A DNA stretch of 64,000 nt. It comes from Pomacea canaliculata. Its lineage: Eukaryota > Mollusca > Gastropoda > Architaenioglossa > Ampullariidae. Under the pieces are notes generated by a model. It saw nothing but the letters and a program-made list of their open reading frames with translations. It did no database searches and had not been told where the DNA came from. Position numbers and translations under genes: made by a program. Every line of letters begins with the position of its first letter. The first letter of the stretch is position 1. The DNA is taken from positions 15,648,550 through 15,712,549 of the forward strand of contig NC_037596.1 in NCBI RefSeq assembly GCF_003073045.1, written 5' to 3'. Positions 1 to 57,700 of the stretch are shown here, piece by piece.

Positions 1-1435
1 AGACTGAGGTCATACACAACAAATATCAGGAAATGTTTGCTGACAAAGTTGCCCCCTGAGCCAATCTCTGGGGAAGTGACGTGTGAATTAAGCGGAAGTG
101 TCCCGGAGTTGACCCTAACTCTGCACCTTGCTTCAACCTTGTGGATTGGTGAAGGGATTTGGACATTACATGCCTTAACAGAACTTGGCGATTCAAATAT
201 CACTTTTGTGCTCATCAATGGCACTGGTAAGTAAAATTAAGACGACGTATTATTAATTATTCTTGCATCAATCAATCTTGAATCTTAAGCTAACGTCTGG
301 AAAAACATTCAAACAAAATTATAATGTTGTGCTATTTACAATGTACATTTTTACTTAGTGACAAGTTTTCTATACAAATATTACTATACTTTAGATAGCA
401 AATTTGCTCACGATTGGTATTCCTCCACCGTTGATGTATCAGGAAATCAAGCATATTTCAAATTTTTATGTTTTAATTAATGTAAAAATCTTAAGTTTCT
501 CGACATTTCTCTCCATGCCAGACATGGTATACATGCATAACCTCTTCTTTTCATAAATGTTGTCTGTGTAAATGAACATTTCTTTGTCTACTGTAGAGTA
601 TTTGTACTCGATTCAGTTGTTCAATTATTACTACCAGTATAAAAATTTGCATGCATACATTAATGTGTTTACATACACACGCACTGGTGGGCACATACAC
701 GTTAAAAACAAGAGATTCCTATATTCATATATAAAAGTACTGGAGTCCTCAGAAGCCCACAAAACACGCGTGCAACACTCACAACTTGGTATATTTACAC
801 ATTTTTATTTAGCAGAATAACAAATTAAAGTCGTATTTTAATTTTGTCGTTGGCAATCTTTAGTTGGTGATCGAGGTCCTGCAATAATAAACGGCAATAA
901 CAGGACAATGACGGGTGAGTAAAATTTTTTTTTTGAAATGTATTGTTCTTTTAAATAAAGTGGTAATGTTGTGTACTTTCTATTATCATTGTCTGTTTTT
1001 CTTCTTTGGTCCCTCTCTCACAAAATCTTTTCATTTTTTTCACTGTCATTCTGTCTCTTTGTATCCCTCTCAATTTGCTTGCGTTGTCTTTACTATTCAT
1101 GTGGACCATCGTTTGTAGAAACATTGAAAACATTTAATATTCAGATATGTTTTGACTCCATGTTAGCCATATGGTTATTTTTTATGAAATGTGCTTAAAT
1201 TAATAAATTACTCTTAATTATAATAAAACTAAGTAAGTAAAAGATTTATAAATAGAAAAAAACCAAATGATAAAAATAAGTGATTGAAAATGAGAGATGG
1301 CATTACTACTTATTCTCAGTACTAGGTGAACGATCAAATTTTGAAAAAAGAGATTAAGGTTAATACTTATTTGTCCCTTTCACAGCAACTATCATACTTC
1401 TGTGTGATTTGCTTGCAATACTTGCTTTTCTTTAA
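1..1435 (+). CDS. B0: 3' end of a three-Ig-type receptor gene with a GPI-like hydrophobic tail (5' end outside window)
   Basis: Three joined exons give an open frame of 108 codons plus stop: <1-226 (third Ig-like domain, matching the 12651-12956 exon of B2, e.g. RSYTTN.{2}KC and GEGIWTLHALTELGDSNITF), 864-914 (17-codon linker, same length and phase as B2 exon 13366-13416) and 1386-1435 (acceptor tttcacag, then ATIILLCDLLAILAFL and a stop). All junctions are phase 1. There is no basic cytoplasmic tail: the protein stops directly after a hydrophobic run of about 16 residues preceded by a small-residue and Asn-rich linker. That is the layout of a GPI-anchor signal, so a GPI-anchored surface protein is inferred. 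The linker holds an N-R-T glycosylation sequon. The signal exon and first two domains lie left of the window. The last exon is the least certain; a TM exon further on is the alternative. Confidence 0.65.
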
Positions 1436-3290: not shown

Positions 3291-6200
3291 ATGAAAGGAA
3301 TAACGATATGTCTACTCCTGTTCCTTGTTCGACAAGGTAAATAAACCTTACAATAAAAGAGTTAAGTGCACTGTTTGTAATGATTGGTGAAGGAGGTTAC
3401 TATGTCCCCAACAACAAGTAGATAGACGCTGTTACAGTGGAAGATAAATGATGTGTGTGCCCTCGACCGTGTACTACTGGCAATCTGCCAGACCTACGCA
3501 AAGATGTCGAGATAGGCGAGCAGGTAGAAAACATGACGTCACTCGTGGCAGGGGGTGGGTGGGGGGTTAGTTCTGAAGCGAGGACAAGTAGTTGGCAAGT
3601 AGTTAACATTACAAGAGCTTCTTGATTACAAAATAAAACACCGTTGCTCAGACACGGCAGATGTTTTAACCGCAGAGCTGTAGTTATAAAGTGCAGGCCA
3701 AGGTGCCATCAGATAAACAAACACGAAGAAAGCGAGAAGTCAATAATACAAATATCAGGGTAGTTTGTTAAACTTCTTTACTTTGTGAAGGCTTCATACA
3801 AGTGGAGGTCTGGGAACATTGAGTAATAGAGTGCAACATAACTGTACGATTTAGACCGCTTTTTACATGGTATTTTCTAATGCCGTTAGCCAATCATTAA
3901 TAGAGTAAAGTAAATTAATTGAAAGTTATTACATTGCTTTTAGTATTGTATGTTTAAAGACTGTTGGTCACTGCAATGTGTACTAGTTTTCTTTTTTATA
4001 ATTTATCAGTGTGTACATGTGTGCATCTTTATTTGTGTGCTTGCGTGCACCTGCATTCTATTTCTACCATTTCAGGTAACACAGCTACAGAATGCAACAC
4101 AATAAAAGAAAGAGCAATACAATGCAAATTTACGAATGACATCTCTTCTACTAAAACTAGCTTTGCAGTATATTTTCTATCACAAGATGGGAAAAAAGGT
4201 ACATTTTCTATCTCTAGTGTCAGTGCCTCTTTCTATGTCTTTGCCTCTACTTCTGTCTTTCAGTTTTTTAAATTAATGTTTTTATTCATGTCTAGAAGTT
4301 CTTGCTGAATATCAAAAGTTTAGTGTCGGCAGATAAGAGTTATTTTAAGTGTGTATGCTGACTACTAAACCTTTTGTTTGAAACGCATTGATAACAATTG
4401 ACACTGTTGTTTCTTTTTACAGAAATAGCTATAACATAGAAAAGTAACAAACAATAGAGAATGTTAATATGTTTAAAATTGTGTAAAAGCATTTGATTTT
4501 CACCCTTATTTGTCGTTCTTCAATGCATTGCACAGAGCTGCTGATTGACTGTGTATGGGTGGACGACAAGCTTGAGTGCATCGAGCAGATAGGTTTTGAG
4601 TGCCAGCAGCCGGTGTCAAACATTGCTGAGATCAGCGTGCCTCCACGATTTACAAGCAAACCTGGATCATACTTATGTCTACTTGAAGGTCACATCACCC
4701 AAGACTCCAAACCCTGTCATTTTTTCGAAAACCAGCATAAGAACCAAACCGAATTAGTTGAGGACAACGTAGACGTAAGCCACCCTGATCAAAAAGGTAG
4801 AATTGCATGCTTAAAATATGCTGGGGCCTCAGCCTGATTATTCACAGATTTATCACAAATATATTTTAGGAATCACTATAAATTATATATATATAGAGAG
4901 ATAGCGAGTCAAATAGAACAGACAGAGACACACATACACACAAAATTGTTCACACTATTCTCAATGTAATGAAACTTGGCATTATTATCGTCATACATCT
5001 TATCAGTCAATAAAATGTACTTTACATAAATACTAAGTTATCGATATTTGTTATAATTAGTATCAGCAGGAACAGCAGTTAAAGTATTAGTACACAAATG
5101 CATAGTCATATATTACTTATACATGCTTTTGAAAAATCACTATTCTATTCACTGTTAGAATTTTCTTTGAAAGCATACAGTCAAATTATATTATAGTTTT
5201 GTATTCTTCTATAATTAAATTGAAATGCGCTAAAACAATACTTATTCAACAGAAAAAGGCATTTCTACAACAACGATTTTCGCCATCTCTGGAACTCTGT
5301 TAGGATGTGTTGCCATTGGCATTGTGACTGTGATACTGGTTAGGCGATGGAAGACGAAAAGTAAATATATTATTTCTTAACTGAAATAGACAAATCAGTT
5401 TTAATTACAGGCCTTAAAAAATGTTCTATAAAGTTTATTAATAATAATCTTAGTCATGGAACAGTCTCAAACGTTTAAAATGTTTTAAACAGCATGGACA
5501 CTTCTTGATCCTCTTAGGATGTGACTTCTTAGACCCGAGAAGCTTGTCAGCTGTAAACGACAATTTAATCTTGAATTCTGAACTCGTCTTAAGTTTTAAT
5601 TGTTTAGGGGATCAAAGGTTAACGAAGATGGATTTCGAGTCTTTACTCAGAGCAGTCGCAAATCCATGAGTAAAGGGAGATAATTCAAAGGCAAAAAGAT
5701 TATAATAGCAAAACGAATCTTCGAAAACGAAGGTTTTTTGTGTGTGTGTGTGTGTTTGATTTTGTGGCACAACATTGATGAGGGATGTGAAGCATTTTAA
5801 ACTTAACTACCAGAGATAAACCTGTTTGAAATATACTTTAAATTGCAAAGGATTTGTGACCTATTAGAGTTTAGCATTCTGTTTGTTCATAGCTTTGTAA
5901 TTCAGCAAATATTATTAAAGTAAAGGTAAAAGAAGAGAAGATGAATGATTTAAGATATCTGTTCAGCGCTAATTTCGAAGTAAGCAAAAATGTGGTCAAA
6001 AGAACTTCTATTTCAAATCTGCGGAAGAAAAAAATTATTACTTTTTCCCTTGCTGTTTCAGATTATTTAAAACATGAACGGTAAGTTTAATGAATTGATT
6101 TTTTTTTCATTTTTACGGCGCAAGTCATTTGTAGAAAAGCGAAAATTGAGTACTTTCCCCTAAAATAAATTACTATTTTTTGTTCTCTTTAATCCTTATA

Positions 6201-11137: not shown

Positions 11138-13416
11138 ATGAAAATCCAAGAGTACTTTTTCCTGATAGGTTTTTTGTCCTTCGACTGTGAAAATGGAACA
11201 AGAATTATTTTTGCCTGTAAGTAGTTTACATTTTTCTACGTTCCATACAGCTGTTTGTTTGATTAATTTAACTATCCCTAATTATATTGAAAATTTTCTG
11301 ATTCTTTATTCTTAATTAAGTAGTAATATCATGACCTTTGAAATTTTTTTTTTATTGTCCTTTTGTTTCGCATATTTTTGTTATGAATCGCGATAGTATG
11401 TTTTAAATATCTTAGATCATTTTTCTTTACTAACTCTTAATTACACAATTTGCAAATTAAAATCTTTGTCATTTTTTTTTTATATTATGTCCTAAATTAT
11501 ATTTCTTGTAACTGAAGATCGAAACCTCTATTCTTTTAAAGGTACAGTAACGGACAAAGAAGCACCCCACGAGAACATAACAATTCAAGATAACACACAA
11601 GCTGATTTCATTTACCACCTAAGAGTCAACACCAGCCAGACTTTCAACGATACGATTTTCGTAATTGAAACTAAGTTGTGCGAAATTGAAAAATATCACG
11701 ATGTGTGCCGATGCCGATGGATTCCTGGGAAGAATGCCGAGTGTAGAAAACACAGAGATGTTTTCATGTGTGAGGCTGACAACCACGTGATGCGCTTCTC
11801 TCTACTTGTCAGGCGGACATATAGCCACATCCTGTGGGAACTCTACAGACCAAATTTGGCTCTGGTTATGCTAAAAACTAGTAATCTACAAGTCATTTGT
11901 AAGCGAATTTTATTTTGGCAATCGTTAATTGTGCTTATTTTTAGATGCACGGCAAATATCTTTATTGGTGTGTTCAGCCCCACATTTTTAAAGATTATTA
12001 TGTCTAGCTACTAATAACATGTATTTTGGTCTTTTTTCTATTTCAACTATTTCTCCTGTTGCTTTAAAAATTCCTTACTTTATCATTTTTTATTCCCTTG
12101 TGTGTGTAGCGTATATAACTAAGTGTAAGAGGGATGATCGAGAGAAAAAAAGAGAGTGAGAAGCAGAAAGGAGAGAGAGGGAATATATATCTTTATAAAA
12201 AAAATTACAGATTTTTTGTTAAAAAAAGTATAACTTGTTAGAATATTTGTGGATTACATTGTTTCCTACAGACCCGCCAAAAGTCACAGGGCTGCAGGTG
12301 AATGGACGAGAAACTAACGAGACTTTCGTAGTTGACGAGAACCAGATGCTCAGAGTCTCGTGCACCTTCGAAAATGGAAATCCTCCTGTCAGTTTTCTTA
12401 TCCGAGACAAAACAAGACAAAGACATAATTCTACAAAACAAGAAGGGGGACCTCTCGTGATTTCTCTGGAAGGTTCTCACTGTCACGACATCTGGCCGGT
12501 CATCACGTGCGAGGCACCGGGATCGGAACTAAACAGATCTGTCGCCATTCTTGTCAGATGTGAGTATCGAAGCAAGTAAGATTTCGTCGTTGCAATCAAC
12601 CAACCTTTCAATAAAGATGTTATCATCAACTTTTTCTGCTTTTCTTTCAGGTCTCCCTGAATTGTTCCACACAGGATACCATTTATTAGCGTTGGACAGA
12701 GTTCTCCAAGAGGGTTTAACTTTTAGAATGAGGTCCTACACCACAAATATAAAAAAATGTATGATGACAAAATTTCCTCCACAACCTATCATTAAGCAAG
12801 TACCATGTGCATTAAAAGGAAGAGTTCCAGAACTTAGACTGTTCCTGAGTCCTGCTATGGTTTCGTGGACTGACGAAGGGATTTGGATGTTACATGTATT
12901 TACAGAGATGGGCGATTCAAACATCACTTTTGTACTCACAAATACCACTACTGACTGTAAGTATCGTTATTTTTAATTTAAACATTTACTAAAATATTAC
13001 AAAAGCAATGAATTGTCCACTCTAAACGATTTTGTCAACTTGATGAAAAGGTCAAACCCTCTCTCTCTTGAACACATACACAACGTTCCCTTCCTCCCTT
13101 CCGGGTAATTTTTACTGATGCTGATGTTTTAAGGGCTTGTAAGCAACTGTTATAATTGTGTATTTGTTTCTTTACCTTGATAAAATTAGTTTGCCGTACC
13201 ATTCATACGCTTATTTGATATCAACCTTTCTTCTCATGGTTATTTTTCTCACACCGATGTTAGGACACGCATCAGCTACGGAAATGCATACAATTGACAC
13301 CTACATACACATATAAAAACAAATTAATCTAATTATACTTTTTTCGCATCACTGAAAATTTGCAGCTCGTGGAGGAGACACTGCAGTTACGGACGGAAAC
13401 ATAACGATCAAGACCT
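11138..13416 (+). CDS. B2: three-Ig-domain receptor or GPI/secreted protein, 3' end unresolved
   Basis: Exons 11138-11216 (signal peptide, MKIQEYFFLIGFLSF start), 11542-11898 (119 codons), 12272-12559 (96), 12651-12956 (102) and 13366-13416 (17) all join in phase 1 with GT-AG borders. Domain 1 carries the Cys cluster KLCEIE..VCRCRWI..CR..MCEAD and MRFSLLV, shared with B3. Domain 2 has LRVSCTFENGNPPVSFLI and ITCEAPGSELNRSVAI, a clear Ig B-strand/F-strand pair. Domain 3 has RSYTTN..KC and EGIWMLHVFTEMGDSNITF. The linker SRGGDTAVTDGNITIKT matches B0. I chose the ATG at 11138 because only that one gives a signal peptide and a 79-nt exon like B3. No clear TM exon follows; see 15586-15786 for a weak candidate. 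No ITIM tail was found. Confidence 0.8.
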
Positions 13417-13505
13417 GTGAGTTCAACTTCTAAAGCAGAATGCAAGATTGTTTGAAGCACAATGATACGTTTGTCCTTCTTCAACTTTATCTAATTATCA
13501 TTTAT

Positions 13506-14119
13506 TAAAGACCATTCTAAATGGTTTGCATTCTTAACAGATATCGGTAGATATAAGCGATATCAACCTAACCTGTAAATTTCAATCTCCAAATCCTCTT
13601 CATTAATTAATTATCTGCTATAATTCCCACCTGTGATCAAAGAGCGCTGCAAATGGTGTACTACGTCACGTTGGTGCACCATTCGCACCTTGGTCAGCCT
13701 TCAACACCAATCAGAGCGACAGTTCGGTTTATCCGAACGATGAAAGTCTGCATTTCTGGAGCTTAAGTAACTTTTTTTTTTCAGTACCACGCGAAATGCA
13801 GACTGTAAGCTTCCGAACAAATTGAACTGTGGCTCCTTGTCTCTCTGATTGGTTCTGACTTCTGGCAATGTTGTGAATGGTGTACCAATGTGACGTAGTA
13901 CACTGTCATCAACGCTCGTTGATCGCGGGTGCGATTCATAGCGGATACTTAATTAACTTATTGGATTTGGAAGCTTAAATTTACATGCTAGTTTGATATC
14001 GCCTGTATCTACTGATATCTGAAAACAACTCAAACCATTCACATTTTTCTTTAAAGCTGCTTTTTCCCCAAATCTCTGATGGGATGGAAACAATACTTCT
14101 AAGATTAGAATGGTCTTTA
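13506..14119. repeat. Foldback element with ~290-bp inverted arms, each carrying an exon-like segment
   Basis: The ends are a perfect 15-bp inverted repeat (taaagaccattctaa / ttagaatggtcttta). The left arm (to about 13765) and right arm (from about 13785) are diverged reverse complements around a short centre; the right arm has about 60 bp extra near 14045-14104. In each arm a splice-acceptor-like ...cag is followed by a peptide of the form ISVD..DI.L.CKF..PNP, then a stop. It sits 3' of the last firm B2 exon. It may be a non-autonomous DNA element or an inverted duplication of a former Ig exon. Confidence 0.7.
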
Positions 14120-17641: not shown

Positions 17642-19696
17642 ATGAGTAAAATTCTGTGGTTTGCTTTCCTATTCGTTCTTTTTCATAAAGGTAGGCATAC
17701 GGAATAAATTCAACGTTGCATGCTGTTTATAGAACATTTAATTTTGTATATTGCGTACTGTTAGGAAAGGGATGTCGGAACCCCTTTTATGATTTATTTT
17801 TTCTTTAAGAGAAGAGAGAGGTTGCACTAAAAGAAAATCTCGACACTCAGACACGTAAGCAGGTGCCACGACTTGGGAGACAATCCACGCTGAGCCGAAA
17901 TCTGAGCAAAATAACCAGTGTCAGAAAGAAAAAAAACAACAACTGCAAACTCATTATTGTTGCCTGCCATCAGATTAATTTTGTCAGCAATACAAATATT
18001 GACATGGATGTGTGTAATCTTTTCTTTTTAAGTTTTATTTCTTGTCAAAGTGTATTGCAGCAATACAAATAGCAGAAACTAAACTCAACAAAAGGTAAGA
18101 AACACCCCTCCCCGCCATAAATAAACAAAACAAAAGTAATCGATCTCTAACACGACTTGATTATGTTACTATGTGTTTTTATGTGGTGAAAGAAGTTTAT
18201 GTTATTTGAAAACTAATCAACGTAGCTCTTTTATTTTATAATTTATAGTTTACTTTATCCTGTATTTTATTAGACACAGTTGTGATTAATAAACCCGGAA
18301 TTCGTACAAAGTTCAGATAGGATTCGTTTTTTATGTCTACAAATAATTACAAGTCCTTGCTGGTAAGTAAGGGGTGTCTGTATGTGTGTGTGGTTTAGTT
18401 TTATTTCTGAATCATTTTTTGCAGGTAACGCAGAAACAGAGTGTGATGCATCTGACGGCACAAACGTCAAATGCAAATTTTTTGAAGACATCAGCTCTAC
18501 ACGGACAAACTTTGCATTATATTTTTATTACGAAAATGGCAAAACAGGTACATCACCATTAATTCAGTCTCCCTCTCGTTTTTTCTCTTATTTACTTACT
18601 GCGAACGCTTATAATACATTAATACTGCTAAAATGATTTTTTTTTTCAAAAGCAAAATACACCATTTGCAAATATCGGTCTGCTTGCATGCTGCAGAATT
18701 GCTGGCTGACTGTTCATGGGTGAATGACAATCTTCATTGCATCGAACAGGAAGGCGTTAAATGCAAACAACCTGTGTCAGACGTGGCTGAAATAATCGTG
18801 CCTATAAAATTTGCAAGCAGACTTGGGGCATACGGATGCACGACTGGCACTTTAAGCCTTGAAAACATCAAACTCTGCCGATCTTTCAACACCCAAAGTA
18901 AAGTTGAAGAAGGTCAAAATGACTTAAAATACCAGCACCTCCCGAAAGAGAACGGTAATTGTATATCATTCTTAAGATGGTGGTATATTTGTTTTTAACT
19001 TATATTAATACGTATAACCTATTTCAAAGTAAACTCTTTAAAAAAAAGGGTTTCTTTTTTCTCTGAATACTCTCTTTTTCTCTCTATTTCTCTCACGCAC
19101 ACGCACATGTTCTCTGTCTTGCTCTGTACACTTTAGAAGCAGCAAATGAAACATTTCTTTCTACTGTTTGTTTTGAGCTCAACCCACACAAATATACGCA
19201 CAAAGCAGGACTTAAGAAATATACATTTCAATAGTCCCACTTCATAGAGGTTAGTAGTGTCTGTAATTAAGAAAATCGTTAAACTTACCTTAATATATAA
19301 GCATTTAGACAGTATTTACTTATAATAAATAGCGAGTAACCTTTACTTCTTGTTGTTTTAACTATTAGTTATGTTTTTATTAATTTCATTCAAAAGTACT
19401 TTTCCTAATTTATGGACTTAACTTTTTAAACAATTTTGCTCGTATATTGTAATCCAGCTAATAGATCACAATGAATTTTTTTTTCAGCAGATTTCGACAC
19501 CATTACAAATTTTATTGGTTCTGTTCTTCCTGCTTTCTTTGCTGGTTTGATCCTAATGGGACTAGTAATTGGACTAAAAGATTTCGACATCATTGCAAAT
19601 TTTATTGGTTCTGTTCTTCCTGCTTTCTTTGCCGGTTTGATCCTAATGGGACTACTAATTGGACTGAATAATGTGATGAAAGACGTCAATCATTGA
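17642..19696 (+). CDS. A4: single-Ig-domain membrane protein with tandemly duplicated TM segment, 212 aa
   Basis: Exons 17642-17690 (signal peptide MSKILWFAFLFVLFHK), 18425-18547, 18697-18954 and 19488-19696 join to 639 nt, all phase 1. The Ig-like domain (residues 17-143) closely follows A1: VKCKF, FALYFY, DCSWV..LHCIEQEG. The usual G-x-Y-x-C of strand F reads GAYGC. The last exon encodes two nearly identical 30-residue blocks, D145-K174 and D175-N204, each a hydrophobic helix (NFIGSVLPAFFAGLILMG), then NVMKDVNH and the stop. If both span the membrane, the C terminus is outside and there is no cytoplasmic tail. A 5' leader exon boundary is visible at 17592|17593 (tttttcag). A plausible poly(A) signal lies near 20058. 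Confidence 0.85.
19490..19669 (+). repeat. In-frame 90-bp tandem duplication of the TM segment in A4
   Basis: Copies 19490-19579 and 19580-19669 differ at only 6 of 90 positions by my count. Two of the differences are silent (gct/gcc, cta/ctg) and the others change T/I, T/A, V/L and K/N. The duplication keeps the frame and lies within one exon, so it looks recent relative to the divergence between family members. Confidence 0.95.
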
Positions 19697-21510
19697 ATAA
19701 GACCCTGCAATGAATGCTATCCTTCCGAGGGAAAAAATTACGTAATTACAGATTAAATCCCTTTGTAGCACCATCAACTGTCTGCGATGGATCGTGGGAA
19801 TCCTAGGTCTTGAGTTCCGGAGAACTAGACTATTCTGAGAAGACCATGTGTAGCGGAATTATTGGCTCCTTACCGGACACACTACGCTGACATCAACTGT
19901 GCCGCTCTGACAGCCAAAGTGGAAATTCATGAAGATAATTTCCACATGTTTTCTGTGTTTTGGTTATATATTATCCTACTTGGACAACTTAATCTCTGAA
20001 ATATCCCTTGTTTAATATGCAAAATGTATTTATGATACTAAGGTTATTTACAGTGTAAATAAAAATATATTAGTAATTAAAATTTGCACGGTTTTCTGCT
20101 GAAATACGAACACATTTCTTTAGTTCAGCTAATTTGTGCCAGTATTTTTTCTAAGTACTTAAATTAACATATCCAAACCTCAGCCTTTATAGTAACTAAA
20201 TTATAACGCTCATTTTTAACTTTTTAAAATCCCTTTCACTATAGAGCATTATTTTTATTGCAAATTATCTTACGGTACAATATAATATCATGAGTTCAAA
20301 ATTGTTTAAACATTTCAATTATGAAATGGCTCCTTCCTCAAAAATAAAGTTTTCTGCAGTTTCTAAGCAGCTGCTAAACCTTGAAGCTGGTGATATTTAT
20401 TAAATAGGTGTACACGAGCATACGCATAAGCACACGATAAAACAAGAGAAAAAGAAAGGCACTGGGCAAAACTGTAAAATATTTTAATTTTTTTATAGCC
20501 ATTCAGCTGCCTGATCACCTAAAACCGTTTGCTCCTCACTTCGCATGTCGAGCATTGTGAAAGTTAAATGTAATCATACAAACTCCCTTTTCTCCCTGTA
20601 TCCATGTTTTCTTCTCATTTGTAATTTCTTAAATTGTTTTACCAAAATCTATGTATAAGTGTATTTAAAATGATATAGATATTAGATTTCACATTTTATG
20701 TATTAAATAAAGTGTAATTATTTATTTAATTATTATTAATTATTTATCAGCTCTTGTTCTTGTTTTTTTGTTCCTGATTGTGTTTTCATTTTTTATTATT
20801 ATTTTTTTAATTATTATTAAATAATCCATATAGAAAACATAACATACTGCCACATAAAACAATTTACATAAATAGATAAACAAACATATCCCTGGCAATG
20901 TACACAAATCTTACTTCAATTTATTAAATCCTACCCTATGAAAATAGCAGCTGACAATAGAAACAGAGGTTGTATAGGTTTAATTTTTAGTTGTAACTTA
21001 CACAAATATAGATAGCTGTAAACACACGGCAATAAATAACACATAATACATCATTTTAAAAAATTTTCATGCTCCAACTACAACTTTTTTTTTCAGGCAA
21101 AACGCATACGCTTTAGGAGTGTTGTCATGGACGTGGTCTATGCACACTTTCGCTCACTTCACGCACACTTCCCCTTTCGTGTTCTTTCACTCACAAATCA
21201 CATAGATTTGTCGTGGGCAACAAAAATTTTTATTAATCAACATTAACTAAATATATACAAAGTCCGTAGGTCTTCCACACAGCGACCTGTAACTCCAAAC
21301 TGTCGAATGTTTTTGAATAAGTCTTAGTTACTCACACCCAGAAATGAAACGTCCAGGTAAAATCCTTTCTGGCCCTTGTTCAACAGTTTTGCAGTCTTGC
21401 CCACACTTGACTGATATCCACACACACAACCGTTTAGAGGAAACCACATACACGTTCCGATGCTTAATAACAATAAGTGCTGACTATGCAGACACCTAAT
21501 CGACGGCTCA

Positions 21511-26573: not shown

Positions 26574-26957
26574 ATGGAAAGAAACAACGCAGTTTGCTGG
26601 ATGATACTTTTATTAGTTTTTCAAGATAATAAGGCAAGCAGCATTATAAAGTGTGAGTGTTTAAATGTTTGTAATTCACTATGATAGTAAAATAATAAAT
26701 TAAGCATTGACTCTCATTATGTTATCTTTAAAAATCGTTTAAATATTCAAACTTTTTGTATAAAAATCGTTTATTTTGTAGGTCGTTGTTCTTACTAAAA
26801 AGACAATACAACATTTCCAGTAACTTCTTTTCTAATATAAAGTTCAGTAAAAGGTTAATGTAGCACAAATGAACCCAGTGTCATTTCATTGTACACAGCT
26901 TATTTAAATGTTACGGAATAATAACACTAGTGCGAAATCGAAATATAGCAAATGATA

Positions 26958-27005
<48 letters not shown>

Positions 27006-30000
27006 TATTATGATTCACAGGTGAACGTACAGACAACAATCTGACTTACTACGAAAACAGTGTGCATGCAGAAAATACTTACGCCGATTTCAGCCATCCA
27101 CTGACCTCTGGAGACTCTGATTTTCGAATTGAAATAAAGTTGTGTGAAAATGGCACTCTGGCTGCTCAAGGCGTGTGTAAGTGCCGATGGATCTCTGGTC
27201 AAGGTCCTGTTTGTAAAAACTTAACTAATGATTCCATCTGCGGGGCCGACAACTCTACAATGCGCTTCTCTCTGCTCATTAAGAGCGAGTACAGTGATGT
27301 CCTGTGGATATTCTTTAAACAAAACGCAACTGCAGTTGTTCTGAAACACACCACTTTACATGTCACATGTAAGTTTACCTTTGCGATATTTTAATATATT
27401 ACAATAAAAACATTTAAAATATTTATATTTGACCATAACTAATAATTTCTTCAAGTACTTTATTTAAAATCTGTTCTTCCAACAGACCCTTCAAAAATCA
27501 CTGGAATGTATGTGAATGGCGAGGAAATAAATGATACACACCTTCTTGACGAGAACCGGGAGGTTAACGTCTCCTGTTTGTTTACCAGAGGAAGCCCTCC
27601 TCTCAACGTTTGTCTTGTAAGTGACACTGGACAGGAACAATCCATCTGCCGTGAAGAAGGTCCTCTAACTCTGTCCCTAGGTGTTTACAAATGTGATGAC
27701 ATGTGGCCAACCGTCAGGTGTGAGGCGCCGGGCTCTGAACTGAACAGATCTGTAGCTATTCTTTTTAAATGTGAGTTTTTTTAAATTAGTTTACATGTAT
27801 GGATGACGTTGTAGATATAGTTCAGTTGTATACATTAACTATGATGTTTTCGCTGATGCGATGCTGTGATTTTAATCAGCGATGATAGTTTTACAAAAAC
27901 AATGAATGTAAACAGATAAGGTAGACACAAACGTAATCGAAATTATTGTCCCTTTTCCAGGTCTTAGGATTTTCTCTGACACAATAAGTCAAGTTTTAGA
28001 CCTGACAAAATTTATAGGTCTTACATTTCGACTGAAATCCTACACAAATAACAGTATTAAATGCACCATGGCGTTGGCGTCATTGCATCCTCAAAGTTTG
28101 GAATTATTCTGTGAACTAAGTGGAAAGGTCCCTGATTTCAACTTGACTCTGGGCTTTGGTGATAACAAATCACGGATTACAGAAGGTAACTGGACGTTGA
28201 AAGTCACAAATGAGCAAGGAAATGCAAGCATATCTTTTGTGCTTTGCAATACCACAGCTGAAGGTTAGTCTTGAATAACATTAATTTTACATATTTAAGA
28301 ATGTATGGTTCCAATTTTAAGTTGCAATTGATATGTCTACTAAATCCAAAGATATTGTTATGCAATTTTTTAATGCAAGTTAGTATTTTTTTTTTAAATT
28401 TTGTTTCAGACAAATCGCAGGGAACAGGATATGTTTCCCCAGTCTCGCCAAACGCTCTTATAATCACTTGGTGTCTTCTATGTGTGGGCATCTTCATTGT
28501 ATCTTTTTCATCTGTTTCAGTTATCTACATAATTAAACTGCGTAGACGTGGTGAGTTCTTAGCGATAACGTGTTGAAGATTATGCATGCGTATTATTATT
28601 TTTTATTTCAACAGAAACAAGCGATAAACTGTAAAATCGTATATTTTAAATGACCTCCAGGTAGATGGAAACAGTCACACCTATCTGTTTTTTATATTTT
28701 CCAGGACGACGTCGTAGGTATGTTGTTTACATTTTGTTTAATATATATATATATATTTAGTTAGATGTGCAGCCTACATGTAAAATACGTGTAAATATAT
28801 CTTTAGCACATATGTTTGGTCAAAAGTGTTGTGTATTGATTGCGTTGTTTGTTAGTATGATTTTACCGCTAACATGAACTGTATTTTAAAAAAAAATTTA
28901 ACCTATTTTTTTTTCTTTAAAGCTGTATACTGCTTTCATTGCACAGCATGATAAAGAAATAGCAGAGAAACAAAAGAAACTCGGCAATTGATAAGAAAAA
29001 TTGGCGAAACATCTACTCTAATGACAGTCACGTAGGAACTAAACAAAGGTTTTACTTCACAAAATAATTACAAAAATCCAAACTTCTTTTCTTTTTATAT
29101 TTATTATTAAAGTTTTAGATTTATCGATGACGATGATGATTGGTATTTCTTCTTTTCTTTAGACTGCATGTCACGGAAACTGAAGCAAATACAAACAACG
29201 GAGCAGAGGAGGACGTGGAATTTGATGCCACTTGTACGTTACTAAGAAACAGAGCTGTATTGTTACACATTATCATTTCATATAGTTAATGAATAAAAAC
29301 AGAATTTCTTCTTTAATTCCTAAAGAGCACAGTTTCTTTAAAGGTGCTTAATAATTCTTTTTGCTTCTGTCCAAATGTTAAACAATGCCTACAGTTATTA
29401 AGGTATTTTTAAAAAAAATAGAAACCGCAGTTTCCCTCAAAGTTCACTGACATTTTAATTTTGGAAAACGTTTCATTGAACACATTATGGTAGTTTAGGT
29501 GCTGGTATAAAACGAACTTATCTCACTACAAGCTGTTGTGTCTATGAGAACAACTTGTTGTCATATGTTAGTCTTATGCATGCTTTCCATTAATAAAGAA
29601 CGACATCTTTAAGGAGAAAAATGAAGAAAAATGTAATGCAAACCAACCAAAAGAGCCCCTCTATTATGGTTTTCAGTTAAGGTAGCAAATCCTTTCTGTC
29701 TAATATTCATTTGAATTTTTCTTCAGACAACGACACCAGGTACCATACCTTTGCTTGTTCTCTAGCTACATTCCAGGTAAAGATAACAACACTTCTCACT
29801 TTTATTCTATGCAATGTGACACAATAATGACACATTATCCTTATTTGAGTAAACATTGTAGGTAATCTTAAAACGGAAATTAATTGTCGTGACTTTTAAA
29901 AATTTTAATACCAATGAAATTTATTTTTTGCGTGATGCTTGAAACGTCTGTCCATACTATAATATTCCGATTTTTTAACATTAGAATTTAAATTATATAT

Positions 30001-30405
30001 TGTCACTTATATCTTATGCTTATTTAAATGCACTTTTTATATTGCGCATTAAGAGAGTTTTCTTAAGGACTGAACTTTTCTAAATCAGGTTAAGATCGGT
30101 GCAGAGCATTAAAATCTGATAGCAAGTGATGTAGCTTATAAAATTTAAGCTGTGTTGGGTGTAGCCACACATATAAAATATATAAATATAGGAATAAACA
30201 GAGGGAAGAGTTTTTTGTGTTATTGTTCTTGTTCTTGTAATAGCACCGGATGTCTACTTCGGCCAGTACCAATGATCGTCTCGTTTACCTGGAGCTAGAC
30301 TTCACAGAAAAAGCAACATCTGATGTGGTTATTGGTTCCAAAGCCGAGACACAGTATGCCGACATTAACTTTGCAGCGACCGTTACATCAAGTACGGAAC
30401 GGTGA
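26574..30405 (+). CDS. B3: three-Ig-domain type I receptor with ITIM and ITSM in its cytoplasmic tail, 483 aa
   Basis: Nine exons join to 1452 nt: 26574-26652, 27021-27368, 27486-27770, 27961-28263, 28410-28550, 28705-28717, 29163-29233, 29727-29776, 30244-30405. A signal peptide (MERNNAVCWMILLLVF) is followed by domain 1 (KLCEN..VCKCRWI..MRFSLLI), domain 2 (VNVSCLFTRGSPPLNVCLV, VRCEAPGSELNRSVAI) and domain 3 (ELFCELSGKVPDFNLTL, GNWTLKVTNEQGN). A TM helix spans about 355-380, then KLRRR. The tail of about 100 residues ends with LVYLEL (Tyr445), which fits the ITIM pattern [SIVL]xYxx[LIV], and TQYADI (Tyr468), which fits the ITSM pattern TxYxx[VI]. In known receptors such motifs recruit SH2 phosphatases or adaptors once phosphorylated; that role here is inferred. 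Ectodomain junctions are phase 1, tail junctions phases 1, 2, 1, 0, all GT-AG. A likely poly(A) signal is near 31,083. Confidence 0.9.
26958..27006 (+). repeat. (CAT)n microsatellite just upstream of the B3 domain-1 splice acceptor
   Basis: About sixteen near-perfect CAT repeats end 12 nt before the acceptor AG (27019-27020) of B3 exon 2. The tract occupies the place where a branch point and polypyrimidine tract are expected, so length changes could alter use of this exon. Skipping it would keep the frame (348 nt, phase 1 on both sides). Confidence 0.95.
28923..28962 (+). CDS. Possible alternative short-tail terminal exon of B3
   Basis: A strong acceptor (tttttttctttaaag) lies in the intron after the 13-nt exon 28705-28717. 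Reading on in the phase-2 frame gives CILLSLHSMIKK and a stop at 28960-28962. If used instead of the 29163 exon it would yield a receptor with TM helix but no ITIM or ITSM. This rests only on a splice-site-like sequence and frame. Confidence 0.3.
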
Positions 30406-33844: not shown

Positions 33845-36800
33845 ATGAAACCTGTCCTTTATTTGATTCTGCTGTCACAACTTGTCCCAAAAGGTGCGTG
33901 TGCCTCCCGTTAAACTGTGGTTAACAGAAAGTGCTCCCTACATTAATTAAAAGGCACTCTTGAGCTTTAATCATTTAAATTTCTTTTTTTTTTTTTTGGT
34001 ATCTGTAATGTATTAGAATTGAAGGAATACAGATTTTCTGTAAATAAATTTGTAACTCATGGTACTTTATCTTCTTATTCCGAGGAAGTTGGAGTACCTT
34101 TTGTTTTGATTATGCTTTAATAAACCGTCTCAGACGTTAAGTTTGCTTAGACTGTACTTTTTAAGTGCATGACTTCCTAATTTTTTTTAATTTTTTGTAA
34201 TGAAATTCTTTGAAATATCTTAATCGATGGTTATCATACTTTTTACTCAAAATTACCTTGTACTGCCTTAATTTGTTTGGGTCAAGAATCCCATGGTTAA
34301 AGCTGTTTACATGTGTTGCTGCAGGCACGACAGAAGCAGGATGTTCAGCAGATGGTGAGACGCTGTTTTGCAAATTTTCACAAGACCTCAACTCAACACA
34401 AAGTGATTTTGTAGTCAGCTTTTATCCAGACGATGGCGGTGAAGGTTAACTGATTTTTAAATGATTGTATAATTCATGTGTTCATGTATAACAGTTTTTG
34501 TAAATTTTTGTAGTCATTATTGTTTCAAGTTGTATTCACTTAACGTTGATTTCTGTTTTCTCTTTTAATTTTTAGCTATTTGGAACGTCAAATCTTTACC
34601 AATAGCAAATAATAACAACATAATGAAATTATTTTTTTTCCTGTATGTATATTATTGTTAGTAGTGACAGTTCTTAAAGAGATATGAGGAAAACGTTACC
34701 TTTGACGGAAAGAATTCCACATATGCTGTGTTTATAGTGATAAAAATTTAAGGAACAGATGTACCTACAAATCAAACTAATGAGTCTTCCTCTTTGGTGG
34801 AATTTTTTTCTTTTTGATGATTTATATATTTTTACTTTGATTTTTTATTTCATTTTGAAATCTAGTGTTTATAACTTTAAGCACTTACAGTTCAAATTAC
34901 TAATTTTTGCTATTGGTCTCTTTTTTCAAAAGCAGGATTTTTTTTCAGGTTATTGTTAATGAATTGGTGTAAGTGCACATCTACCTCGTTATCTGGTTTA
35001 TGCCATGATTAATCCAAAAATTTGAGCATAAATGAAGGGACATATATAGATATACACATTATTTTATTATTAAGAATAGATTTGCATAAAGCAAGTGTTA
35101 GATGGTTAAACGTTTTTACATCAAATTGTTTCGGTCTCATGAAATAGGAAATTTAAAATCTTCTCTCACATAACTTTTATCAAGAATTTTGCTTTAAAGA
35201 AGAGTAATCTATTTAGTTAAATAATCTTTCTTGTTTATTTAGGAAAAAGTCATGTCAACTTATGTCAGGCTGTTGTATTATCTATTTCTTGGGTATTCAG
35301 GTTTTTTGTTAAACTCTTAACGACATGAACTGTTCCAGCTTGCTTTCTTTCAAAGTTATGATTATCAGAAACTACAAATGACCCGTGAGTGTTACAGAAG
35401 TTTGTAAACACTATTGATCAGATTTGGGTTTTATCTGTACTCTCTACAGTCTACATAATGAATTCTAAAATATTAAAACTGCTTTATTAGTCAATTCTAA
35501 TGCAAATTTAATGTAACTGATTAGGTCACGTCCTTGGCGAAAAAAGATTAAAAAATGTTTGTGCTCTAGATTTTCTGTGGAAATGAACGGAGTCGTTTGT
35601 TTTAACGAACATATCTTGGAAGTGCTTAAACATCAGCTTATTCTTCTACATTTTCTGTAAGGGTAAGTAAATATTTTATCAATATCGTTTACATTTGACC
35701 AGATATCAATTGAAAGAATCATACTTTATCAATAGCGAAAAGACATTACGATCTGATGTCTAGTTTAAAAAAATTCCATATGTGCTCAGTTTTTCTTTTT
35801 TTCTCTATTGCGCTAATGAAACCCTATAATGTTAAAACTATTTTTAAAATTGTGTAATCTCTATAAGATGCTTAGTCTATTTCATGGATTTAATATTTGT
35901 GTTAATTGTTCTTTCTCTTTAACAGCTACTTTGTGGAATTTTCTTTAAAAAATAAAATGTGGCTTTACAAATTTGTGTATTATGTGTTTGTTTGGAGCGA
36001 TCTCTAACCGGACAGCGAGGTACTGTGCACATTTTTCTGTGTCCTAATACTTAATTTCGTTGCTTAGTTTGGAACTACAATGCTATTAAATAACACTGTA
36101 TTTAAAACACATAACTAATACTAATAAGCTGTGTCAATTGATCTAAACAGAGCCACTGCTGGACTGTGCATGGATCAAGTCAGATATTCATTGTATCAAT
36201 CAGAAGGGAGTAGCTCCCCAAACACCGGTGTCAAACACCGTTGCCATCACAATACCCACGACTTTTCTAAACGGAAATGGAAGTTACAAGTGTGTACCTG
36301 AAGGTTTTACACACAACAGCATTAATGAGTGTCGATTTCGAGGTAAATATGAGTTTGTTTTTTTTTATATAATATTCAGTTTCCACTATTTCCACGATTT
36401 AATCTATTTTTGTACCATTTACTGGAAAAGGCCTCTGTTTTGCTTTTCAGCCAGAACTAATGGGGTCGTTGGGTAGATTAGATAAACAAAGCTTTCGAAA
36501 GACCTTGTTACAGAGACATTACACAGGCAGCGGTAAGCAGGTTTTTCTTTTAGTCATTCCTTTATGTTTTCCAGAATTTTTTACCACTGTCTGTATCATT
36601 TTAAGGAGGTCAAGAACAGCTTACATCGACTGTCGAGCCAGATTACATGACCAAACCAAACAAGCTTGAGTCGTTTAACTGTCGCTAGTCTTGGTGACCC
36701 ACCAATGTTGTGGTCTGTTGCAATCCTATTGTTATGTTGTAATATCATTTCATCACCAAAGTACGATAAAGTATAGTATAGTCTACTGCAGTTTTTTAAT

Positions 36801-43212: not shown

Positions 43213-45075
43213 GTGAGGCAGAAATTGGTTGCAACGCAACTGTTGAAGGACACTTGATGTGTACGTTTCCAGAAAATGTTAACATTACAGAAACAGACTT
43301 CGGGGTATACTTTTATCCTGTTCATGGTGGTGAAGGTAACTCATGAAACAGCATTTATTATGCCTTTCTTTTGCTTGAAAATTGAAATGCTTGATTCATC
43401 AAACCATAGTGGAGGTAACAACAAAAGTCTAATTAAGCATTTTCTTCACTTCTAAATGTCTAAGAGTAGGCACCTGACATCCATATCCTTCGTTCCCGGT
43501 TTTTACTATCATATGGCAAACACTATCATGCATGGAGATTTTAAAATATTAAAATTTTTTTAAATGTGTATGTTTAGCTATGGCAACAGGGCTCCACATA
43601 TATAATGTTGTTGTAATGATTACTGCCAAAAAAGATAGAGCTTATAGGTTTTATCTTAAAATAGTATTAAAAGCCGTCTGAAAAAGGCTTTTAATATGAA
43701 TGGCTTTCTTTCTTAGATTTCCACGAACGTGATTATAAATTAGGAGCACAAAATAGTGTGTTCTGAAAAAAAACCTACAAGAAATTTGACAAACAAATTA
43801 TTTGTAAATCCTTTTTGCTTTGGCAGTTTGAAATCCGGAAAGTTGTATTTAACTAGGTATAGAAGGATAAGGAAAGTCTGCTGTTTAGGCGGCATTCTGA
43901 AGGGAAAAAAATCAAATAATAGATAGCATCAATAAACATAAATGACACATAGTTAATTGTTTTTGAAACAAAGAATTTAAAAAAATTAACAGGTTACAAA
44001 CTAATAGATGTTAAGCTGCAGTTGAACGAAATGACGAAAGTATTTTGTATGTCCCCGACATGGCCTGAGATAAAAGTACTGTCAAGAACAGCCTGTGCTA
44101 AACAAATGTATACCACCTCGCCCAAACATGTTTGTTTGTTCAGAACCACTTCGTGTGTGTCTCGTTTCTGCCCCGCCCGTATCCCAACTATATGCTTGCG
44201 ATGTCATGGTTACTGGTGACTAAAATATGGAATTACTCCAACTGAGGTTTTTTGCCATCCACCGGTATACATTTTTGAATCATTGATTAAAAAATACAGC
44301 ATTCAAAAAAAAAACAAAAAAAAAAAACAAAAACAACCCATGTTTGTTCTACAGAAGACAAAACATCCGTGCGTTGGCTTCCTGTTTGTTATTTGCTCGC
44401 CCATAACATATGACTGGTTTTTGCTTGATCATGTTTCTTTTTTAATTTTTTTTTCTTCGTGCACACACTAGGTTAAAATAAAAACATCTTTTGAAGATTG
44501 CTCTGTAGCCGTGACGGATATCTCGTGAGGAATGTCATTCTTTTCCTCATCCCTTTAAAGCTGTGAGATGACCTTCCATTAACGGATTCTCTTACGCACA
44601 AAAATCACAACTTACACTTTGCGATCACTTTTTTAATTACTAAATACTGCATCACAGAGCATTTCAAAGTTTTGTTCTTACATATTAGTGTTGCCATCAT
44701 CTTTTTAGCTTTATTTAACTTTAAATTACCACAAAGCTTAACGCACATGTATATAATAGATAACAATGTAGAAAATTAAGATGTATTTTTTTATGGTATA
44801 GATTTTTTATAGAAAGTATAAAAACTGCTTGAAAACATGATTAAAGAATGATTACATGTGCTAAATTCGCACAGAACCTCTTTTGGACTGTGGATGGGTC
44901 AATGCGCAGCTTCACTGCATCAAACAGGAGGGAGTTGAGAGTAAAAGCCCAGTAAACCACACTGCTGTGATCATCATACCCACAAGGATTTTGGAGGAAA
45001 ATGGAAAGTACAGATGTGTTAGTGACGGCCACAGGCATAACACCATTAAGCCATGTCAGCTTTCTAGGAAGCAAG
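43213..45075 (+). CDS. A6: Ig-domain exons of a receptor copy lacking a clear start and end
   Basis: Two well-kept exons are present: 43213-43335 (EAEIGCNATVEGHLMCTF, FGVYFYPVHGGEG) and 44875-45075 (LDCGWVNAQLHCIKQEG, NGKYRCVSDGHRHN). Both are phase 1 with consensus borders and most similar to A7 (same 123- and 201-nt lengths). No signal exon of the usual ~49 nt was found. The best candidate, ATG at 41,300, lacks a proper donor. No TM exon was found between 45,076 and the A7 leader; acceptor-like ttttacag at 48,641 could give a short hydrophobic end (VFLQYSLITSFF). The hAT element at 45,900 lies about 0.8 kb downstream. This is probably a dying copy with intact domain exons. Confidence 0.6.
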
Positions 45076-45891
45076 GTATAATAGCTTGTGGGTTAATACA
45101 ACCTTGCCATTCCCTTTTGAACCTTTACTTTCACAAACATCTTCAACTGTATGCATACTAAAGCAACACTGTATTAATCAATGCATTAGTACAAAAAAAA
45201 GCAAATAAATACTTGAAAAATATATGGCAGCACGCTAGACAACTTTGCTTTTCATCTACCACACAAATATATAAATATATAGCTAAAGAAAGCACAGAAA
45301 TGTACACACATAATGTTGGTAAATTATATACAAGAAAATACTAAATACACTAAAATGGAAAATATTTAAAGCACACAAAACGATGAGTGAATGAATGATA
45401 TTATATTTTACTTTAATAGAATAAAAAGAAAAAAATGAAAATACATAATATAAGTAATAGAAAATATAATTTGCATAAGCTTATTAAAATAATGACAAAA
45501 GTAATCCAGATTTAATCCAGATATATGTCTGTAAATGAGAAAGTAAACTTTTTCCTAGTTTCCTCTTTTAAATAAAATGTCAGCTTTTTATTTGTATTCC
45601 AATAGTTTTTTTAAAAGTTGTCTTAAAATGGTTACTTAAAAATCCCTAATATATGATTGGGTTTGACAGAACGAATATAAATCAAATGCAGTGACACTAA
45701 TAAAATTCTGTCTACATGTAAATGAAGAAGACAAGGACATAAAAGTAATCGTGCATATGTGCATCTACATTATTTAGTAAGCTCAGCCAAAACAAATCGT
45801 GGTGAAACTACTTTGAATCCCCAAAATGTGCAATATTTGTATCTAATCATTAATACTAACTTCAGAGACACATGTGTTTTAATCCATATTC

Positions 45892-54775: not shown

Positions 54776-57700
54776 ATGAAGGGTGTCTTCATTTTCATTT
54801 TCCTCTTACAGCACGTTATATGCGGTAGGTGAGCACCTTGAAAATAATATTTTATCTTTTATGATCAGTCAATATTTTAATTTTTTTTACATACTAGAAT
54901 ATGAAAGCCACTGTAAGGCGACTAAAACGACATAGCACATCAAACTTAAATGGAAAGTATTATTTCTGCTGTAAAAAAAATCTGAATACTGGATAACAAA
55001 TGCTGTGGTAGGAATTTATCAGGCTTATACTTTAAAAAAATGTTGCAGTACTGACACTTTATTTCGGTATTTTTAAAGATGTCGAGACACGTATATACAT
55101 AACTTTTTTCAAGCCTTGAACTTTTAAATAAATGGCAATTTAAAAGATAAGATGATTATGTATACTTGCTATCTGTTCATAATTGCATAGTTGCTTGTGC
55201 CAAGTAATCAGAAATGTGCCAATATTGTCTCAGTCTAACGATGTGTTTCAATTGCCTTTTAGGTGAGTTGAAAATAGAATGTGCGGCAACAAGTGAAAAA
55301 AACTTAGTATGCAAATTTCCAGACAACGTCAACTCAACTCAGAAAGATTTTGGAGTCTACTTTTATCCTCATGATGGTGGCGAAGGTGAATACCTAAAAA
55401 TGGGTACTATCTAGTTATCTCTTCTCTATCTCATCGTACATTTATAGCAAAAATCAAATCATTTCTTGAACAAATATGATAGAAAAAATGCTGAAATATA
55501 TGTCAAGAGGAGAATTTATATGTTATGATTCGCCAGCTTATATTTATGTCTTTTCTTAACTTTTGTAATTTGTCCTTTTCTTTCTTTCTTTCAGCTAGGA
55601 ACAGCAATATTTCTAGAGCATTAAAAAAAATTCTTCACCTATTCGCGATTCTTAGATGACAAGAAGGAAAAACTGACATCAAAATTGTCAACTTATTTCA
55701 TTAGATTGTCAAGATTACCGCGAAAGAGAGAGAGTGGACGGTATAATTATATTCATTAGGCGTATTTGTCTATAATCATCGCGTCACTTCTCTTTACTCA
55801 GAATGAGGCTAATACACTTAAATCGAGAGAAAGAACGGAGGATAAACACATATTTTGGTAAATATTATAAGATGAAAAACACAACACAGTGTAAAAAAGT
55901 TACTATCGTCTTCAAGTTAAAAGAAAAGTTACTCACTCATTATGACATGTTTTGGTACTCTTAACTATCCAAAAAAGCACTATGCGTTCTGGTCTAATTA
56001 TCTTAATTTATGATGTAAGTGATCTTGTTCTGAAAATAAAACTTCTCTATCTTTATAAAAAAAAATCGAAAATAGCTCGTCTCCCATTTCTTTCTATCAT
56101 TTCACTAGCTTAGTAGAGCTAATAAATGTTGGTTTTATGCGAAGTGATGAAGACTTCAGACTATGTGTTGAATATCGAACACCACTCACTTGATGAAACT
56201 AAGAAAAAGTGAGGATATATAAATACTATAAAGAAAGAAAACAAAGTGTTACGATGTTTGTAACTCTTTTGTGTTGAAACTCTCAAAGGCCATGTCATTT
56301 GCTTTATCCTCATAATATTTTCGAAGAATTTTTTTTATTTGTGAGAAAATATCACGTGCTCTGCTTGTGGTCAGGGGTTCATTTAAATAACTCCGGGGTT
56401 TTAGGGAGCTTTGGATGTGACATCGATAGATAATTACAAAGAGAGAGGAAGTAAAGGGTTAGGGAGGCAGCAAGAGCGAGCGGAATGTCACCTAAATAAT
56501 AAGCAACAGGGGATATTCTGTACATTTTTGAAATGGAAACATTAAAATATCATTTCAATTTATAATGTCCAGTCAAAGGTTTTTACTCTGTCTCACTCAA
56601 AGGCATACATTAGGACGTCTTCCCCCGTCCAAGTAAAGTTTCGGATTATCTAATTACTATTTCTGAAGTCTTAGAATTCTGTCCACGACGAGTGTGGTAC
56701 ATAGTAAATGCGGGCGTACTGAACCAAGACTTTAAATTGGTCAATGACTGTATATTATACACAATACAGAAAATTGATATTCTGTGATCTGATCATTTTA
56801 ATCGATTTAAACTCTCTACAGAACCCCTGGTTGACTGTGGATGGGTCAAGTCACAGCTTCACTGTATCAGACAGGAGGGCTTTGAGTGTAAAAACCCGGT
56901 GAACAACACTGCTGTAATCACCATACCTACAGAGTTTTCAAACAGAAATGGAAGTTACAAATGTGTAACTGATGGTTACAAACATGACAGCATCAGACCC
57001 TGTCAGCTCTCTAAGAAGCAAGGTATAACACAGGTTTGAAAAAATAGTTTTCTGTAAGTCCTTTTTTGTCAAAGTATTTGCAAAATAAATGCGATTATCC
57101 AAAAGTACTTAACAAACTCTCAAACCGTAAACGAAGTCTGTTGGTAATACTTTAGTTATTCCATGTGTATTCTCTAATATATCTCTAATGTGAGAAAATT
57201 GTGAATGTGTAGAGAAGTTATAGTTTGTCCTCACTTTATAAAATTTCCTTTTAGTTTTTTTAGTGCGATAGATGATTGCTTAGAAATAAAACGACATGGA
57301 ATGGCTGCGTGAACTATCCTAGCAAAGTTGTGACTTAATTTTACTGACTTTTTGAAAGCAGAAAAAAATTATTATTATAGTTGAATCATCGCAAAATTAA
57401 TTTAAACCATTGAATACTTCTAGATTACACCATTGCATGTATTACGCACACTACTTCAACATTTCCAAACTCTGTGCTCTAAATTTTTAAAATGCTATAT
57501 TTCATACTAAAATGTTATTATTTTTGTTTGTTAAAAAAGAAATTCTCAACAGAATTGTGAATTCTTATTTTAAATATACGTAATGAATTTGAAGATTAAG
57601 CGAGCAAGACTCTCAAATATAAACATTGCTAAGTAGCAATTATTTGACATTTCTTTTTTAAAGACAATATATGCGTGGCTCTTGTATATCTTTTTTTACC

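Follow-up and report, generated by a model that had tools for sequence, protein, structure and literature searches.

A clustered snail family of candidate inhibitory Ig receptors with a conserved ITIM-ITSM tail exon

Gene B3 and its neighbours

The window analysed here, a stretch of 64,000 nucleotides, corresponds to C7:15648550-15712549 of the 440,159,624-base, 24-contig host genome. Read from the sequence, B3 is a single gene on the forward strand, with nine exons, GT-AG at all junctions and an open frame of 483 residues free of internal stops. Its layout is that of a signal peptide, three extracellular domains of one exon each (phase 1-1), a stalk with a transmembrane helix, and a cytoplasmic tail. 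Exon 1 (26574..26652) provides the ATG, a signal peptide recognised by eye (MERNNAVCWMILLLVFQ...) and a gtgagt donor in phase 1. Domain 1, of predicted V-type Ig fold, is encoded by exon 2 (27021..27368), the Ig-like domain 2 by exon 3 (27486..27770), with about 150 matches along its own chromosome, and domain 3 by exon 4 (27961..28263). Exon 5 (28410..28550) contributes the stalk and a transmembrane helix without charged residue that is followed by KLRRR, and exon 6 is predicted, from GT-AG and phase, as a micro-exon of 13 nt (GRRRR; 28705..28717). Exons 7 (29163..29233) and 8 (29727..29776) are cytoplasmic, the latter with a relative (E 0.001) that adjoins the tail L010 of another family member. 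Exon 9 (30244..30405), directly preceded by ...cttgtaatag, joins exon 8 in phase 0 and encodes HRMSTSASTNDRLVYLELDFTEKATSDVVIGSKAETQYADINFAATVTSSTER up to the stop codon at its end. The cytoplasmic tail of about 100 residues extends from the end of exon 5 through exons 6-9, and its last exon holds the motifs LVYLEL (30280..30297) and TQYADI (30349..30366), with 23 residues from tyrosine to tyrosine.

The first-pass annotation had read these two motifs as an ITIM and an ITSM in the tail of a molluscan-type Ig receptor, encoded by its last exon, and this reading stands. Both motifs fit their consensus, B3 combines one transmembrane helix with a cytoplasmic [SILV]xYxx[LIV] motif, its nine exons join in phase, and the tail is conserved in paralogues. 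We infer that the exons are spliced as modelled, the tail exon included.

Pfam returned nothing over the cut-off for the B3 domains, domain 3 among them, or for the transmembrane part, and for domains 1 and 3 the sole Ig match had an E of 0.13. When 12 domain-2 sequences including that of B3 were compared with Pfam at E ≤1, six matched Ig_C17orf99 (best E 1.4e-5) and six Ig_2 (best 0.0088). The structure predicted for domain 2 (mean pLDDT 84.8, 12 sequences) had Ig domains as its top fold matches, the best at E 1.6e-3 and none at E ≤0.001, and the best PDB sequence match was nematode SYG-2 (E 0.0081). The predicted fold of domain 1 (pLDDT 86.9, six sequences) gave 88 PDB matches at E ≤0.001, of V-type Ig, including sodium-channel beta4, 2B4, CTLA-4 and antibodies. 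An Ig identity is well supported by fold prediction for domain 1 and fairly supported for domain 2, and it is through the predictions for these two domains that B3 has the extracellular Ig part of an ITIM-bearing inhibitory Ig receptor.

Two further three-domain genes lie upstream on the same strand. B1 is represented by its 3' part (1..1435), consisting of domain 3 (1-226), a stalk exon (864-914) and a terminal exon (1386-1435) without tail. Its C-terminus, ...NGNNRTMTATIILLCDLLAILAFL-stop, is hydrophobic and, by eye and hydropathy, of GPI-anchor type. A paralogue at C7:15.33 Mb resembles B1 in its stalk exon (82% identical, E 8e-7) and weakly in its end (53%, E 0.08). The first-pass annotation had proposed short-tailed paralogues as activating partners of B3; this part is unsupported. 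B1, the one nearby three-domain paralogue that could be traced to its 3' end, and the paralogue at C7:15.33 Mb look GPI-anchored and tail-less rather than activating. No partner with an ITAM or a charged transmembrane segment was seen among the few relatives' 3' ends read. B2 (11541..13418) comprises domains 1-3 and a stalk exon, and no convincing transmembrane or tail exon was found; three scans for the transmembrane exon gave only poly-T-rich stretches or the signal peptide of the next gene. Behind the B2 stalk exon, at about 13530-14060, inspection by eye shows a long inverted repeat that may be a small transposable element.

Interspersed with the three-domain B genes are one-domain (C-type) genes with a split domain exon, five of them in the window (4078-4741, 18427-18953, 34333-36335, 43218-45092 and 55277-57006); this family has 46 matches at E <1e-4, all on C7. 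One C-type gene on the forward strand (17642..19696) consists of a signal peptide, a split domain exon and a membrane exon that ends at once. This membrane exon (19489-19696) encodes two near-identical tandem hydrophobic copies (DFDxIxNFIGSVLPAFFAGLILMGLxIGL). Behind its stop (19696), on the same strand, lies a frame-broken relic of a tail exon (19819..19906; found in the 64-kb window at a best E of 1.2e-4) that has lost its first tyrosine and its frame. The decay of this relic gives a picture of a tail exon without selection. A link of C-type genes to tails was rejected, since the roughly 1.5 kb flanking each of 26 tails on both sides held no C-type match better than E 0.1.

The tail exon and the receptor family on C7

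The domain-2 exon has at least 151 matches in the genome. Among the 150 matches listed, a few of which are halves of one exon, 149 fall into three clusters on C7, with 91 at 11.2-13.3 Mb, 35 at 14.9-15.8 Mb and 23 at 17.1-18.5 Mb. These clusters hold 17, 13 and 0 intact tails, respectively, and comparison with the domain-2 counts suggests that roughly one family member in five has a tail. Of the 30 tails, 27 have a domain-2 exon less than 10 kb upstream in the same orientation, a count made without an orientation control. Accordingly expressed from the other side, 27 of the 149 clustered domain-2 matches are tied to a detected tail, and relatives with and without a tail share the clusters. From its sequence, B3 is a predicted type I membrane receptor of a large single-chromosome snail family, about 30 members of which share the tail exon. 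In its nearest paralogue (C7:15348264-15348551), domain 2 is interrupted by an in-frame stop although the tail, L010, keeps both tyrosines, and this paralogue may for that reason be a young pseudogene.

Searching the genome with the B3 tail returned 26 places, all on C7, and both tyrosines are kept in every one. Further searches added 11 places, including the intact cluster tails L044, L045, L048 and L068. Together with the relic in the window, the 37 places in the genome make 38 tail-like places; 33 have both tyrosines, two have the first motif only (L076 and L077), and three are frame-broken (L078, L079 and the window relic at 19819-19906). All copies were found by their likeness to a tail with both tyrosines, and the counts independent of a motif pattern are 26/26 and 33/38. 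The set of 30 tails used for the following comparisons consists of the intact two-motif tails of two clusters, selected by a pattern in which both tyrosines are obligatory.

Within this set the ITIM consensus fits all 30 tails, with LxYxxL invariant, and the strict ITSM consensus fits 25 and fails in five. Around the first tyrosine, L is found at -2 and +3 in 30/30 and F at +5 in 29/30; T precedes the second tyrosine at -2 in 28/30. The distance between the tyrosines is 23 residues in 27 tails, 24 in two and 22 in one. A random stretch of 53 residues would contain an ITIM with an ITSM behind it in about 2/10,000 cases at generic composition and in about 12/10,000 at the tails' own composition, and a lone ITIM in about 10% and 16%, respectively. 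A chance origin of the motif pair in B3 is ruled out because both tyrosines are conserved across the tail copies.

The codons point in the same direction. The first tyrosine is encoded by TAC in 22 and TAT in 8 of the cluster tails, the second by TAC in 16 and TAT in 14. By parsimony on a short codon alignment, with a tree from which the two tyrosine columns were left out, each of the two codons changed four times and the residue never, giving about eight changes together, all synonymous; on the same tree, two or more residue changes fell in 31 of 37 gap-free columns. Taking one change in six at a tyrosine codon to be synonymous (a hand calculation with transition/transversion 2), we arrive at a probability of about 6e-7 for eight out of eight. 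Purifying selection on both tail tyrosines is the best explanation of this pattern. Gene conversion could add to their conservation, because the comparison is among paralogues of one genome. By a strict rule, an in-phase splice acceptor precedes 19 of the 30 tails, that of B3 included. None was found by this rule before 9/30, and in two of these nine, L016 and L023, the expected position appears to have lost its AG, so that some tail copies may be dead or otherwise spliced. The near-identical L076 (C7:10.340 Mb) and L077 (C7:9.667 Mb) keep the ITIM (LIYGEL), but their second half is unrelated and lacks an ITSM.

The proposed mechanism and its alternatives

We consider it likely, with some reserve, that B3 is an Ig receptor whose ITIM-ITSM tail, once phosphorylated, recruits an SHP-type phosphatase and inhibits the cell. 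Once B3 is clustered with an activating receptor, a Src-type kinase would phosphorylate both tyrosines, the phosphatase would dock on the two phosphotyrosines through its tandem SH2 domains, and the docked enzyme would damp signalling in a haemocyte or similar cell. A candidate phosphatase is at hand. SH2 matches at C2:35208148, 35209235 and 35210141 are followed by phosphatase matches at C2:35215646 and 35217443, all on the forward strand, and this co-location on one strand probably marks one SHP-like gene at C2:35.2081-35.2176 Mb. An inhibitory precedent is provided by an amphioxus LRR receptor with ITIM-like motifs which, according to the abstract of PMC8211107, inhibits signalling in Jurkat T cells and associates with SHIP1, and less with SHP1/2. 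Because of this association, SHIP would be an alternative partner for B3.

The tail could instead be a switch or activating platform, its second motif binding a SAP-like or kinase SH2 protein and promoting phagocytosis or activation. This is rather unlikely, as the first motif meets the ITIM consensus in all 30 tails and the 22-24 residues between the tyrosines differ from the spacing of an ITAM, which rules out an ITAM reading of the tail. On the other side, vertebrate ITSMs can act both ways, inhibitory and activating. The oyster receptor CgIgIT2, moreover, is called ITAM-bearing and activating via ERK in the text seen of a review (PMC11999971).

We regard as unlikely, too, that the tail tyrosines of B3 belong to endocytosis or sorting signals and that the receptor, with no inhibitory signalling, serves in scavenging or adhesion. 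YLEL/YGDL and YADI both match YxxPhi, the consensus for such signals, but sorting needs neither the L at -2 (30/30) and F at +5 (29/30) of the first motif, nor the T at -2 of the second (28/30), nor a near-fixed spacing of 23 residues.

Inhibition might also serve cell recognition in neural or developmental settings rather than immunity. The SYG-2 match of domain 2 (E 0.0081) would be in keeping with this, but B3 belongs to a many-copy, clustered and diverged family on a single chromosome, with relics and tail-less members, a usual pattern of immune or allorecognition receptors, and we hold a neural role to be quite improbable. That exon 30244-30405 lies outside the B3 transcript, or that B3 is a pseudogene, is hardly credible: exon 6 has just 13 nt and the nearest paralogue (C7:15.348 Mb) carries an in-frame stop in domain 2, but every splice site and phase of B3 fits, and the tail stands behind a domain-2 exon in 27/30 and behind an in-phase acceptor in 19/30 copies, B3 included.

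Relation to known receptors

The order and spacing of the B3 motifs had been likened to the PD-1 tail, and the likeness is borne out, with an ITIM followed by an ITSM at 23 residues as compared with 25 in PD-1. PD-1 is a vertebrate gene with one V domain, whereas B3 has three extracellular domain exons before its transmembrane exon and thus departs from a single V-set ectodomain. In the text available from PMC5149523, the PD-1 tyrosines are Y223 and Y248 and the motifs VDYGEL and TEYATI. YGEL occurs in 8/30 and the exact TEYATI in 4/30 snail tails, but the likeness is confined to these short motifs, and the B3 family counts about 150 domain-2 exons. Given its three extracellular domains and large clustered family, B3 is not PD-1; the likeness does not imply homology and is more simply, and probably, put down to convergence on motifs that bind SH2 domains.

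The Siglec, LILRB, SIRP and FCRL families have Ig ectodomains, clustered genes, and members with and without ITIM tails. They belong to another phylum, and in the snail set no charged-transmembrane or adaptor-linked partner appeared among the few ends read. The parts of B3 fit the PD-1 or Siglec scheme, with two tyrosines at a near-fixed distance suited to two SH2 domains.

Invertebrates offer further comparisons. Draper-II, to our knowledge neither an Ig receptor nor part of a many-gene cluster, is an invertebrate ITIM receptor with binding of an SHP homologue, as proposed for B3. In the passage from PMC9008705, the ITIM of this Drosophila protein is bound by the SHP homologue Corkscrew. Oyster IgIT/CgIgIT2 is, like B3, a mollusc Ig receptor with a tyrosine-motif tail; compared by description, it has five Ig domains and, per the review text, an ITAM (PMC11999971), as against three extracellular domains and an ITIM-ITSM pair in B3. 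Two titles cited by the same review call it inhibitory. Oyster CgSiglec-1 has inhibitory activity according to the title of the paper, and the passage from PMC5877582 does not mention an ITIM. Dscam tails can include an ITIM in Daphnia and are without one in shrimp and crab, according to the part of PMC6851185 consulted. Biomphalaria polymorphic transmembrane clusters (PTC) are likewise clustered snail membrane-protein genes. A word search of PMC7494358 and PMC10875847 for immunoreceptor or tyrosine gave no hit, and homology to these resistance clusters is unsupported by such searches.

The earlier statement that tails of this kind are rarely described outside vertebrates has to be tempered, as oyster IgIT/CgIgIT2, Draper-II and the amphioxus LRR receptor have already been described, and Ig receptors with tyrosine motifs are a kind already known in molluscs and other invertebrates. 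The snail family itself was not found among the papers listed on ITIM or tyrosine-motif receptors of molluscs and invertebrates or on Pomacea immunoglobulin, covered by titles and abstract openings with few subscription papers. What is new here is how large and clustered the family is, how its spacing resembles that of PD-1, and the evidence that both tyrosines are under selection.

The sequences suggest that molluscs evolved their own large set of inhibitory receptors, and the tail module may be older than the B3 receptor family. We tentatively raise the possibility, which we would not call probable, that gastropods independently evolved a polygenic checkpoint-like system, in which about 30 clustered Ig receptors, each joining a diverged ectodomain to one selectively fixed ITIM-ITSM tail with PD-1 spacing, are accompanied by more than 100 relatives without detected tail, some of them GPI-anchored, that serve as decoys or competitors and not as ITAM-coupled activators. 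If this were true, the vertebrate principle by which many diversified inhibitory receptors converge on one phosphatase switch would also have arisen outside vertebrates, and the snail receptors would be a tractable entry to the limits on haemocyte self-attack and its possible exploitation by parasites.

Outside the clusters, L080 (C7:27.47 Mb), L081 (27.10 Mb) and L067 (22.30 Mb) have both tyrosines, in the motifs LIYSSL..TEYVSI/TEYISI and LIYADL..VNYETI, and an open stretch within L089, upstream of L080, contains TVYENV.
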